A stretch of DNA of 38,343 nt from Lacunisphaera sp. (GTDB lineage: Bacteria; Verrucomicrobiota; Verrucomicrobiia; Opitutales; Opitutaceae), in NCBI GenBank assembly GCA_023269445.1, contig JAHFTH010000003.1:1-38343 (forward strand), given 5' to 3'. Below are positions 9,624 through 34,558 of the stretch, piece after piece. Position 1 is the first letter of the stretch. Each line of letters starts with the position of its first letter. Made by a program: the position numbers and the translations under genes. The notes beneath the pieces were generated by a model. It did not search any database. It worked only from the letters and a program-made list of their open reading frames with translations, and was not told the origin of the DNA.

Positions 9624-10607
9624 ATGAGCGAGTCCGATCAACTTGGAGGCGGTCCCGCGGCCGCGGGATCACCCCGCAAGGCGGACGAGGGCGTCCGCCC
9701 TCCATTGCTGAATTCCGCGCAACGCCGTTCCATCGCCTTCATCACCGGCGCGGCCCTGATCCTGTATCTCGCGGTGCGCCTGCTGCCCGCCGGCTCCAAT
9801 GTGAACCACATGGATTTTCGCGTGGAAGGGAAGGGGGTGCTGGAGTTTTGCGATCCGGCCAACCCCCAGTTCATTCCCGTCGTGGCCGTGCGCTCCCCGG
9901 TCGTCATGACCGTGCAGTCCGCTCGCGCCGCCGCGAAGGACGAGCCGGTGGAAATCACGGTCACGCTCCGCACCGCCAGCGGCAAACCCATCGGGCCGGC
10001 CGATCTGCTCGTGGCGCACACCCGCAAGCTGCACCTGCTGGTGGTGGACCCGACGCTGACCGACTATCAACATATCCATCCCGAGCCGGGCCGCCGGGAT
10101 GGCGAGTGGAAATTCACCCTCACGCCGGCGCGCGCCGGACTCTACCGGGTCTTTGCGGATTTCACGCCAGCGGCGACGCAGCGCGGGCTCTACGCCTCGG
10201 CTGATCTGCCCGTATCGGGGCCGGTGGCCACGGTCATCACCAGCGGCAGCACGGTCTATCAGGACCGCGGCTATAATTTCGAGTTGATACTCCCGCCGAT
10301 TTTGCGCGCGGGCCAGCCCACCGTGCTGCGTTTCCGCATCGAGAGCCAGGGTGCGGTCAAGCGGCCGGTGCCGTTGCAACCGGTCATGGGGGCCTTCGCC
10401 CATCTGGTGGCCTTTGACGAGTCGCGCAGCGGCTTCGCGCATTTGCATCCGGTGGAGAACGACCTGTCGAAACCACCCGATGCCTTGCACCCCGAGCTGA
10501 ATTTCCGGCTCACCATCCCGGTGTCCGGTCGCTACGTCATCTGGGCGCAGGTGAAACTCGACGACAAGGAAGTCTTTGCGCCCTACTGGGTGGACGTGTT
10601 GCCGTGA
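9624..10607 (+). CDS. Membrane-anchored periplasmic protein of unknown function with two H-rich motifs; probably co-translated with SCO
   Basis: One TM near the N-terminus; ..HTRKLHLLVVDPTLTDYQHIHPE.. and ..FAHLVAFDESRSGFAHLHPVE..; starts 1 bp after the SCO stop. Confidence 0.8.
   Translation: MSESDQLGGGPAAAGSPRKADEGVRPPLLNSAQRRSIAFITGAALILYLAVRLLPAGSNVNHMDFRVEGKGVLEFCDPANPQFIPVVAVRSPVVMTVQSARAAAKDEPVEITVTLRTASGKPIGPADLLVAHTRKLHLLVVDPTLTDYQHIHPEPGRRDGEWKFTLTPARAGLYRVFADFTPAATQRGLYASADLPVSGPVATVITSGSTVYQDRGYNFELILPPILRAGQPTVLRFRIESQGAVKRPVPLQPVMGAFAHLVAFDESRSGFAHLHPVENDLSKPPDALHPELNFRLTIPVSGRYVIWAQVKLDDKEVFAPYWVDVLP
9645..9703. repeat. REP-like hairpin pair located inside the coding sequence of the 9624..10607 gene
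   Basis: GGAG foot 9645..9648, TCCCGCGG|CCGCGGGA palindrome 9653..9668, GGCGGACG-AGGG-CGTCCGCC 9680..9699, inverted foot CTCC 9700..9703. Confidence 0.8.
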
Positions 10608-19896: not shown

Positions 19897-19974
19897 GTGG
19901 GCGGGGTGCCCTCACCCCGCGAGGCATGCGCTGTGCGAAACCTGAAACCAGCGGGGTGAGGGCACCCCGCCCAC
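19897..19974. repeat. REP-like inverted pair GTGGGCGGGGTGCCCTCACCCCGC / GCGGGGTGAGGGCACCCCGCCCAC
   Basis: Perfect 24-bp inverted arms at 19897..19920 and 19951..19974, 30-bp spacer. Confidence 0.95.
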
Positions 19975-21498: not shown

Positions 21499-21522
21499 GC
21501 GGGGTGAGGGCACCCCGCCTCC
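21499..21522 (-). repeat. Single REP unit GGAG-GCGGGGTG-CCCT-CACCCCGC (reverse)
   Basis: Identical to the copy at 32402..32425 flanking the RAYT gene. Confidence 0.92.
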
Positions 21523-28511: not shown

Positions 28512-28587
28512 GTGGGCGGGGTGCCCTCACCCCGCGAGGCATGGCGGACGATCGCGGTAGCACGCGGGGTGGGGGCACCCCGCCCAC
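28512..28587. repeat. REP-like inverted pair of the GTGGGCGGGGTGCCCTCACCCCGC type
   Basis: Arms 28512..28535 and 28564..28587, one mismatch (GTGGGGG vs GTGAGGG). Confidence 0.94.
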
Positions 28588-29807: not shown

Positions 29808-31907
29808 ATGAATTCCGACGCCACCGCCTGCGGGCCCACAGGCTGGCTGCCGCCTTATGCCCCGGCGGAGCCAGCAGGGCGTGAGGCTGTCCTGAACTCG
29901 ATTCTGCACGCTCTGCCCATCGGCGTGTGCTGGCAGCGAGGTGCGGACGGGGAAAATTGCTGGTGCAATGAATCCTTCTCCCGTCTCACCAATCGGGATT
30001 GGACCGGGATGACGGCAATCGATTCGCTCGCGGAGACCCTGCATCCGGAAGACCAGCCGGCTTATGGCGCGGCGCTCACCCAGTTGCGGGTGGGGGCAAC
30101 GGAGCAATGTGACCTGGAATTGCGCTGCCAGGTCGGAGACGAGATCTGGTGGCGGCGGTTTCTTCTGCAGGCCAACCGGTCGCCGGAGGGACGGATCACC
30201 GATTTGCTGCTGACCGTGACGGACATCAGCGAGCGCAAGCAGCACCAGGAGGAAATGCGCGCGGCGCTGGCCGGCGCCGAGGCCCTCAACGAGCAGATCG
30301 AGCTCGCCATCGGCCGGGCGCAGGAGGCGGCGGTGGACGCGAATCTGGCCAGCCTCTCGAAGAGCCAGTTTCTCGCCACGATGAGTCACGAGATCCGCAC
30401 CCCGATGAACGGAATCATCGGCATGACCGACCTCCTGCTCGAAACACCGCTCAACCGGGAGCAGCGCGACTTTGCTGACACGATCCGGGTCAGCGGCGAG
30501 GCCTTGCTGACGATCATCAATGACATTCTGGATTTTTCCAAGATTGAGTCCGGCAAGCTGGAGTTGGAAGAGGCGGATTTTTTCCTGCGCGATTGCGTGG
30601 AAGGTGCGCTCGACCTCATGGCCGCACGGGCGCGCGAAAAGCAGCTCGATGTGCTTTATGAAATCGCGGATGGCACTCCGGCCATGGTGCGCGGCGATGT
30701 CACGCGGTTGCGCCAGATTCTTCTCAACCTCGTGGGTAATGCGCTCAAGTTCACCCCCAAGGGTGAGGTGGTGGTCCGGATCGAACCCGAAGTGGGTGGC
30801 ATCGTGGCCCCGGGTCTGATGGGCTTCCATGTTTCCGTCCGGGACACGGGCATCGGTATTACCCCCGAAGGGCAGAGCCGGCTGTTCCAGTCCTTTAGCC
30901 AGGTGGATGCCTCCACCACCCGCAAATACGGTGGCACCGGCCTGGGCCTCGCGATCAGCAAGAAGCTGGCCGAGCTGATGGGCGGACGCATGTGGGTGGA
31001 GAGCGAGGTCGGGCAGGGCTCAATTTTTCATTTCACCGTCACGCTGGCCACCCGACCCGGTTCCGCCCGGCCGAACGTGGCCGTGGCGCGGGCCTTGCTC
31101 TCGGGCCGGCGTGTGCTGCTGGTCGAGGACAATGACACCAGCCGGCGCAACCTCGCCGAACTTATCAGTCGTTGGGGCATGGAGCCCCTCGCGGTGGGTT
31201 CGGAGGAAGAAGCGTTGGCCGCGCTGAAGACTGGGCGGAATTTCGACATCGCAATCCTCGACGCCCAGCTGCCGGGCACGGATGGGGTGCAGCTCGCCCG
31301 GCAAGTCAACCAGCACCGATCCGGCCCGCCGTTGCCGTTGCTGCTATTGGCCGCCCCCGGCCAGCGGGTGCCGGAGGGTGTGACTGCGACCTGTGTGGCC
31401 AAGCCCTTGAAAGCAGTCGCGTTGTTCGAGGCGTTGGCCGCGGCCTTTGGCCGGCCGAGTGAAGCAACCGTTCCGATCATGCCCGTAGCGAAGGCCTCGG
31501 CCACGGTGCAGACGACCAAACTGCTGCTCGCCGAGGACAATCTTGTGAACCAAAAGGTCGCCGTGAATCTCCTGAAAAACATCGGCTACCAAACCGAAGT
31601 GGTGGCCAACGGCTTGGAGGTGCTCGCGGCCGTGGAGCGCCAGACCTACGACATCATCTTTCTCGACATGCAAATGCCGGAGATGGACGGACTGGAAGCG
31701 GCCCGCCGGCTCGTTGAATTGTATCCGCGGCCGGAGCAGCGCCCTTGGATGATCGCACTCACCGCGAACGCCATGCAGGGCGACCGCGAACTCTGCCTCG
31801 ACGCGGGCATGGACGACTACATCACCAAGCCCATCAAGAAAGTTGAACTCGCCACCGCGATTGAACGGGGCCGCGCCGTGATCGCGGGGCGGACTGTGAT
31901 GTCCTGA
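29808..31907 (+). CDS. Hybrid sensor histidine kinase with PAS, HisKA, HATPase and two receiver domains
   Basis: ..[28 protein letters not shown].., ..[30 protein letters not shown].., REC1 ..[20 protein letters not shown].., REC2 ..[26 protein letters not shown].. Confidence 0.95.
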
Positions 31908-31913
31908 TGCAAT

Positions 31914-32425
31914 GGAGGCGGGGTGCCCTCACCCCGCTAGCTGAATTGCAAATCGTGCAAGGTGCCCTGATAAGGCCAATCGGCGCTGCGCAAACAGAGA
32001 CCCTGCCGCACCGGATTGTTCTGCACGTAATCCCATTTGTGTCGGTAGCTAACAGCCGAACGCATGAAGTGATCAAAATAGTCACCTTGCCAGACTGGAG
32101 TGACGGCTTGGCAGCCGGCGGAGATTCGGCGAGAGGAAATTGATTTCCAGCTTTTCATCCAGGCCGCGAGTGGCTTCGCCTCAATGACAGGTTGAGTGAA
32201 GAAATGCACATGATCCGGCATGAGCAGATAGTGGCCGACGAACCACCCATCGACGGTGGCCGCTTTTGCCCACACCGCCTCAAGTATTTCCTTTGCGGTG
32301 CTCCCTGCCAGAAGCGGCCTTCGATTCGCTGTGCAAGTAGTAATAAACAGGAGTGGCTGCTTGCTGAATGACTGTAAGTGAGGGAGGTGCATTATACCTT
32401 TGCGGGGTGAGGGCACCCCGCCTCC
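31914..32425. mobile_element. RAYT gene bracketed by perfect 24-bp inverted REP units
   Basis: GGAGGCGGGGTGCCCTCACCCCGC 31914..31937 and its exact reverse complement 32402..32425. Confidence 0.88.
31937..32392 (-). CDS. REP-associated tyrosine transposase (Y1_Tnp / RAYT family)
   Basis: ..LLFITTCTANRRPLL.., ..GHYLLMPDHVHFF.. (HUH), ..GDYFDHFMRSAVSYRHKWDYVQNNPVRQGL.. (Y..NPV). Confidence 0.93.
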   Translation of the reverse strand: MHLPHLQSFSKQPLLFITTCTANRRPLLAGSTAKEILEAVWAKAATVDGWFVGHYLLMPDHVHFFTQPVIEAKPLAAWMKSWKSISSRRISAGCQAVTPVWQGDYFDHFMRSAVSYRHKWDYVQNNPVRQGLCLRSADWPYQGTLHDLQFS

Positions 32426-32426
32426 A

Positions 32427-33470
32427 TCAGGAGTTGCGAGCTAGACTCTGCGCCACCTGCGGCCAGAGCGCAGCGGTGCGCTCAGCGAGAATGGCGCGGC
32501 AGCGGGCGATCTCAGCCTCGCGCTGGGCGAGGTTGCCCTCCGCAATTTTCGCGAGGTCATCGAGGTTGTAGAGAAAGACGTTGGCGATCGCGGCGGCCGC
32601 GGGATCGATGTCGCGGGGCAAGGCGAGGTCGATGAGAAAGAGCGGCCGGGCGCGGCGCTGCATGGCGGCAGTGACCATCTCATGCGTCAGCACAAAGCCC
32701 GGTGCGGCGGTCGAGCAGGCGACAATATCGGCGGTGGCGAGGATATCGGGGAGATCGGACAGGCTCGCGGCCCAGCCGCCGGCCGAGGCGGCGGCTTCCT
32801 CGGCCTTGGAGAGTGTGCGGCTGGCGACCGTGATGGCCTTGGCCCCGCGGCTCTGGAACGCCTGCACGGTCTTGAGGCCGATATCGCCGGCGCCGACGAC
32901 GAGCACGTTCACCGGGGCAAGGTCGCCGAAGATTTTCCCGGCGAGGTCCACGGCCACGTTGGCGACACTGATCTGCCCCTCGCCAATGCGCGTGTGGGAG
33001 CGGATGTGCTTGGCCGCCTGGAAGGCTTTCTGGAAAACGCGGTTGAGCACGGGCCCGGTCCATTGACGGGCGAGGGCCTTGTCGTAGGCGGTCTTTACCT
33101 GGCCGAGCACCTCGGTCTCACCGACAATCTGCGAGTCGAGTCCCGCGGCGACCGAGAAAAGATGGGCGACGACATCGTGGTGTTGTCGCAGGTGCAGCAC
33201 GCCGTCCAGTTCGGCCGGCGCGCAGCCGGTAGTCTCGGCGAATGCGGCGCGCAGGACCGCGAGTGATTCCTCACCTCCGGCGACGCCGTAAAGTTCGACG
33301 CGGTTGCACGTATTGAGCAGGGTGAATTCGCTGATGCCCGGGGTCTGCTGCAGGCGCGTGGCGAGCGCGGCGGCGCGGGCGTCGTCGAGCGCGAGTTTCT
33401 CGCGGACAGCGAGCGGCGCGGTGTGATGGCTGGCGCCGAGGAGAAAGAGGACGGACGGGGTCGGCTCCAT
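32427..33470 (-). CDS. hemA: Glutamyl-tRNA reductase
   Basis: ..LGASHHTAPLAVREKLAL.., ..FTLLNTCNRVELYG.., ..GETEVLGQVKTAYDKA.., ..VLVVGAGDIGLKTVQ.. Confidence 0.96.
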   Translation of the reverse strand: MEPTPSVLFLLGASHHTAPLAVREKLALDDARAAALATRLQQTPGISEFTLLNTCNRVELYGVAGGEESLAVLRAAFAETTGCAPAELDGVLHLRQHHDVVAHLFSVAAGLDSQIVGETEVLGQVKTAYDKALARQWTGPVLNRVFQKAFQAAKHIRSHTRIGEGQISVANVAVDLAGKIFGDLAPVNVLVVGAGDIGLKTVQAFQSRGAKAITVASRTLSKAEEAAASAGGWAASLSDLPDILATADIVACSTAAPGFVLTHEMVTAAMQRRARPLFLIDLALPRDIDPAAAAIANVFLYNLDDLAKIAEGNLAQREAEIARCRAILAERTAALWPQVAQSLARNS

Positions 33471-34393: not shown

Positions 34394-34558
34394 GGAGGCG
34401 GGACTATCAGTCCCGCAGGGATTGCCGGGCTTGTTGTGGGCGGGGTGCCCTCACCCCGCGAGGCACTGGTTGCGGAAGCGATAACACGCGGGGTGAGGGC
34501 ACCCCACCCACAAAATCAGCGTCATCCGCTAACACCGGCGCTCATAGAGCGCCGCTAC
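34394..34558. repeat. Compound REP cluster with four hairpins of three stem types
   Basis: GGAG-GCGGGACT-ATC-AGTCCCGC 34394..34416; GTGG-type pair 34436..34459 / 34488..34511; CGGCGCTC-ATA-GAGCGCCG-CTAC 34536..34558. Confidence 0.9.

Follow-up and report, generated by a model that had tools for sequence, protein, structure and literature searches.

The window, meaning the whole stretch of 38,343 nucleotides from the Lacunisphaera sp. contig JAHFTH010000003.1 that was analysed, carries a 512-bp cassette in which a predicted open reading frame (ORF) for a REP-associated tyrosine transposase (RAYT) lies between two perfect inverted 24-mers. The left REP unit (31914..31937, plus strand) has the exact sequence GGAGGCGGGGTGCCCTCACCCCGC, a GGAG foot and a hairpin with an 8-bp stem and a 4-nt loop (-14.9 kcal/mol with RNA parameters), and the right unit (32402..32425, minus strand) is a perfect inverted copy, the exact reverse complement of GGAGGCGGGGTGCCCTCACCCCGC. 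The inverted match reaches 2 bp further outward on each side (AT before the GGAG), so the arms of the cassette measure 26 bp. To the left lies a hybrid histidine kinase gene (29808..31907, plus strand; PAS, HisKA, HATPase and two receiver domains), and the left REP unit begins 6 bp past its stop codon (31905-31907). To the right lies hemA for glutamyl-tRNA reductase (32427..33470, minus strand; assigned from its domains), and the right REP unit ends 1 bp short of its stop codon (32427-32429). The RAYT (TnpA-REP) ORF occupies 31937..32392 on the minus strand and encodes 151 aa plus stop, and its TAG stop (31939-31937) overlaps the left REP by its final base, at 31937. An ORF of 159 aa with a GTG start opens within the right REP, but the start is likely the ATG at 32392, because the other four Lacunisphaera copies begin at the corresponding ATG; it is preceded by AAAGG, a predicted Shine-Dalgarno sequence (32397..32401, minus strand) directly behind the right REP hairpin, and a purine-rich motif stands at the same place in RAYT orthologues. 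An earlier note, made from the letters of the window, had described a RAYT element of about 512 bp bracketed by perfect inverted 24-bp REPs and fitted between the two stops at distances of 6 bp and 1 bp, and these coordinates are exact to the base. Its one slip concerns the RAYT stop, which it had starting on the left REP's last base; since the RAYT is on the minus strand, the stop in fact ends there.

The protein scored 87.9 bits against the curated NCBIfam model NF047646 (cut-off 80) and matched PF01797, and a sequence search led to the E. coli TnpA-REP structure 4ER8, which is bound to a REP hairpin. The same structure was the best fold match of the RAYT model (E 1.3e-10; model pLDDT 92.5). 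The motif set of the RAYT family is present, with an HUH motif (H61-V-H63), one catalytic tyrosine (Y122 by homology) and the NP(L/V)(R/K)xG motif as N126-P-V-R-Q-G; H61, H63, Y122 and N126 are invariant over 38 aligned sequences, the last three as invariant columns. By homology, the cassette protein is a RAYT, an HUH/Y1 single-strand nuclease, and the score above the NF047646 cut-off together with the top fold match bears out the earlier identification of a RAYT with flanking REPs. An IS200/IS605 transposon was considered and rejected, with 27.2 bits against the IS200 model NF033573 (cut-off 55) and no second copy of the element in the genome. The RAYT itself has no second close copy in its own genome, where the next best protein is 47% identical. 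The general architecture is already known, since an earlier study (Nunvar 2010, PMC2817692) described RAYT genes that are flanked by inverted, coevolving REPs and encode a fast-evolving protein.

Nine matches to the REP core with up to three mismatches lie in the window, where 0.01 are expected, and the four other loci named in the earlier note (19901/19951, 21499, 28516/28564 and 34440/34488) were all recovered by this search. The solo REP at 21499..21522 (minus strand) is the sole other copy of the core with a GGAG foot in the window and is, as had been claimed, identical including the foot; the remaining three loci have GTGG instead of GGAG and are REPINs (inverted REP pairs) at 19897..19974, at 28512..28587 by the 5' end of lpxB, and at 34436..34511. 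A second GGAG REP, at 9680-9703 of the window and at 15 other sites in the genome, keeps the GCCCTC loop on a different stem (GGAGGGCGGACGCCCTCGTCCGCC) and is found in compact hybrid pairs together with the GCGGGGTG REP. Across the genome that contains the window (G000; 3.03 Mb), 93 cores with up to two mismatches (0 for a reversed control pattern) and 26 exact 24-mers were found. The feet at 97 sites were GGAG (42), GTGG (34), GTAG (15) and others (six), and the three main classes share one common hairpin. These sites form 29 pairs, 28 of them inward-facing, with a spacer that is usually 28 bp. Mixed-foot pairs also occur (GGAG/GTAG, GTAG/GTGG and GTGG/GGAG; G000 C16, C177, C200, C213, C264 and C270) and look as if built from two REP classes. 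It was considered whether the REPIN spacers (GAGGCATG...) derive from the start region of the RAYT gene (Shine-Dalgarno to ATG), but this was dropped because the GAGGCA tail also follows the REP downstream of other RAYTs (L149, L150).

A second RAYT in the same genome, at C203, is 47% identical to the cassette protein; its flanking REPs combine the same hairpin with GTGG feet, and it most likely serves the GTGG REPs of the genome. The proposal that the cassette RAYT is the source of the dispersed repeats therefore stands for the GGAG class but not for most copies in the window, which have GTGG feet and fit the C203 RAYT. G000 has 15 GTAG sites, but the part of its genome that was covered (86% complete) yielded no RAYT flanked by this hairpin with GTAG feet; other Opitutaceae do have RAYTs of that kind (L080, L089). 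Exact GGAG 24-mers numbered 26, 10, 20, 7 and 2 in the five genomes with the RAYT, and 2, 2, 2, 2 and twelve zeros in the sixteen genomes without it (p=0.0003, or p=0.003 minus the two flanking copies; shared descent weakens both values). The exception is G017, with a RAYT and no GGAG REPs besides its own two flanks. G000, G005 and G014 are rich in GTGG copies, and C203-type RAYTs are present in G000 and G014; no close RAYT was found in the fragmented 590-contig assembly of G005 despite its 40 exact GTGG REPs.

REP positions relative to genes were evaluated using a home-made codon-usage gene caller with start correction. Among loci in tandem gaps, 22 of 30 were closer to the upstream stop (p=0.016), and at nine of 13 convergent loci a stop was no more than 10 bp away (5.6 expected, p=0.009), some of the convergent entries being RAYT arms. 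The suggestion that gene ends are preferred landing sites thus has modest positional support, but selection against harmful insertions explains the bias equally well; selection suffices, and target choice is no better an explanation. Fifteen of the 67 REP loci of G000 fall inside predicted coding regions, possibly as in-frame additions to proteins.

A search with hemA recovered a gene order common to relatives, lpxB - kinase(s) - [RAYT] - hemA - ccsA - acetyltransferase. The RAYT is present at the kinase-hemA junction in five Lacunisphaera genomes (G000, G003, G017, G010 and G004), with amino-acid identities of 59-71% between the other four and G000, and all ten REP arms of the five cassettes are the same 24-mer with a GGAG foot. 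Third codon positions of the five RAYT genes are 31-46% identical, against 70-82% at positions 1 and 2, and dN is 0.19-0.38 with saturated dS; the ORF is intact and under strong purifying selection. The five RAYTs are monophyletic (91/85 among 40 RAYTs, 99/96 among 56). At least two further Opitutaceae genera have a RAYT at the same junction: G146 (59% identical, GGAG arms) and G368 (53% identical, within an array of GGAG REPs); the AU test (p 0.37-0.42) neither established nor rejected a grouping of these two with the Lacunisphaera clade. The array in G368 (L391, 1160-2340) is BIME-like, with GGAG REPs of two alternating stems around the RAYT; the stems vary by paired changes, and the foot and the loop GCCC[TA]C are nearly constant. 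In other Lacunisphaera the kinase-hemA junction is without a RAYT. A degenerate REP in G016 and an outer REP half in G018 remain at such junctions and point to RAYT loss, and the RAYT-less junction of G009 bears a complete solo REP. A related RAYT elsewhere in G016 (L153, G016:C2:272239) has an in-frame TGA and is probably decaying. In the lpxB-hemA interval (L235-L254), hybrid kinases are tandem, single or absent among Lacunisphaera. Judged from synteny and divergence, the RAYT locus is old, vertically inherited and single-copy rather than a recent insertion. RAYT-less junctions, for which the earlier note had proposed to look, do exist, yet the RAYT is common to five species; relatives carry it with diverged flanks, as the note had expected of a domesticated gene, but dispersed copies exist as well.

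The orientation of the cassette differs between species. Four of the RAYTs read in the direction of hemA (G000, G003, G146 and G368) and three in that of the kinase (G017, G010 and G004). In the species tree, G000 and G003, which have one kinase each, fall in one clade (100/100). One origin within Lacunisphaera together with two orientations implies at least one inversion, so at least one in-place flip of the cassette is probable; two inversions would be needed if the orientation seen in the other genera is the ancestral one. A literature search found no description of in-place RAYT inversion, which does not prove its absence from the literature.

In the literature, RAYT feet are given as GT[A/G]G (PMC2817692, PMC6006769, PMC8266576), with CnGA for class 3. 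A GGAG foot does not occur in PMC3733652, PMC6006769 or PMC8266576, and a literature search found no pairing of REP transposases with GGAG, although absence from the literature is not thereby proven. Because all protein features hold, the RAYT with a GGAG foot was filed as a variant, and the GT[A/G]G foot describes the REPs published so far rather than defining the protein family. The second foot base goes with two residues of the protein. In a discovery set, residue 15 was L/V/I in 15 of 15 GGAG RAYTs and Y/F in 30 of 30 GTRG RAYTs, and residue 109 was F/Y/Q in the former and L/V/I in the latter. A held-out set was assembled from later sequences of the family and phylum plus loci of relatives outside the discovery set; duplicates of the discovery set were removed and feet were read by a script that took every foot to have the form G-N-[AG]-G, so that other feet would be missed or misread. 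In this set, the ratio of G to T at the second foot base was 14:2 for non-aromatic and 3:44 for aromatic residues at position 15 (p=2e-9), and 13:0 for F/Y/Q and 4:46 for others at position 109 (p=2e-10); exceptions were L093, L118, L255, L364 and L375. A tree built without columns 15 and 109 contained three independent foot contrasts on supported branches, so the held-out p values overstate independence; residue 15 followed the foot switch in about two of the three and never went the opposite way. The sequences thus link G or T at the second foot position to residues 15 and 109 of the RAYT, with few independent switches.

In the RAYT model, residue 15 opens strand 15-21 and residue 109 closes strand 106-109. 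The E. coli TnpA-REP contacts its GTAG foot through beta1, around beta4 and through a C-terminal tail (PMC8266576), and PMC6006769 names W94, Q95, E100, H101 and R104, which surround the residue aligned with 109. As the model strands coincide with the published E. coli contact regions, it is plausible that residues 15 and 109 contact the foot.

The locus is very probably a REPtron, that is, a long-resident single-copy RAYT with its own inverted REPs, whose function is inferred from homology and comparison. The RAYT would bind single-stranded REP through the GGAG foot and hairpin, would cleave and rejoin at the REP by analogy with E. coli TnpA-REP, and would thereby spread GGAG REPs and REPINs in trans, while GTGG REPs would be served by the C203 RAYT. 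The cassette itself would not multiply. Its perfect inverted arms may be the substrate that lets it turn round in place, by strand transfer by the RAYT or by homologous recombination. A more tentative joint reading, which seems rather doubtful at present, is that residues 15 and 109 set the second foot base (T or G) as a specificity code and that the cassette works as a switch that slowly flips between the inverted REPs on its two sides; under such a code, one genome could run two RAYT/REP systems, GGAG and GTGG, on one hairpin. That the two residues are instead lineage markers of RAYT clades with no role in reading the foot is a real possibility, if short of probable, given just two to three independent foot switches on supported branches and five held-out exceptions; against it, two separate GGAG clades changed at both residues, and both lie in beta1/beta4, where the solved homologue contacts the foot.

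The recently inserted autonomous mobile element of the earlier note would account for perfect inverted arms, a tight fit between two stops and RAYT-less junctions in related species, but it is very improbable in view of one junction in five species, a monophyletic RAYT with near-saturated third positions, a next copy in the genome of 47% identity, and REP remnants at some RAYT-less junctions that suggest loss. If related RAYTs had landed several times independently in a REP-rich hot spot behind hemA, no flip would be required, and such a history would suit both the REPs or REPINs at the RAYT-less hemA junctions of G009, G012 and G019 and the AU result for G146 and G368; it is unlikely, as the five Lacunisphaera RAYTs form one clade (99/96) that holds both orientations and the identical 24-mer pair is found in five of five. 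Full domestication by the host, with the REPs reduced to hairpins that work in both directions between convergent genes, as terminators or mRNA stabilisers, is quite improbable. The location between convergent stops, the strong purifying selection and the hairpin energy agree with it, but the unpaired 4-nt foot is conserved like the stem and would be needless for a terminator, no T-run follows the hairpin, the foot base goes with protein residues, and GGAG REPs are commoner where the RAYT is present.

The preferred reading, a resident REPtron, places the cassette beside systems known from other bacteria. Like the gammaproteobacterial REPtron (PMC2817692), it has a RAYT ORF between two inverted REPs, as is always the case there, a REP number that follows RAYT presence, syntenic RAYTs that evolve faster than their neighbours, and extragenic REPs in inverted doublets. 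It differs in its GGAG rather than GT[A/G]G foot, in arms that are identical in five copies, whereas the REPs of syntenic RAYTs there differ by up to three changes, and in an orientation that varies between species. The E. coli TnpA-REP (RayT/YafM, 4ER8; PMC8266576) shares the fold, the HUH and Tyr motifs and the NPV motif at about 23% identity; at the position aligned with residue 15 it has W, an aromatic residue that fits its GTAG foot, where Lacunisphaera has L, its C-terminal tail of about 20 residues appears absent in the Lacunisphaera RAYT, and the Lacunisphaera REP has a perfect short stem without the bulge of the E. coli REP. REPINs and BIMEs (Bertels and Rainey 2011, PMC3116915; PMC3733652) are likewise inverted REP pairs with a short spacer and many copies, but in Lacunisphaera some pairs mix two feet and some are hybrids that include a second stem (GGCGGACG..CGTCCGCC). 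The Opitutus terrae repeats (PMC3733652) are palindromic tagged repeats, also from Verrucomicrobiota, but with the tag GTAG, and the GGAG class is unmentioned there. IS200/IS605 elements (IS608, ISDra2) share the HUH/Y1 fold, whereas the ends of the cassette are inverted, not on one strand, and there is no multiplying element.

The kind of system is thus known; this variant has a GGAG foot and one locus conserved across species, with an orientation that differs between them. The field has yet to explain how a RAYT selects its REPs and what ties one REP family to one RAYT, and natural GGAG and GTRG RAYTs on one hairpin provide a clean pair for tests of foot recognition. The flipped syntenic cassette raises the further questions of what has kept its arms unchanged for so long and whether DNA between REPs can be inverted by RAYTs.
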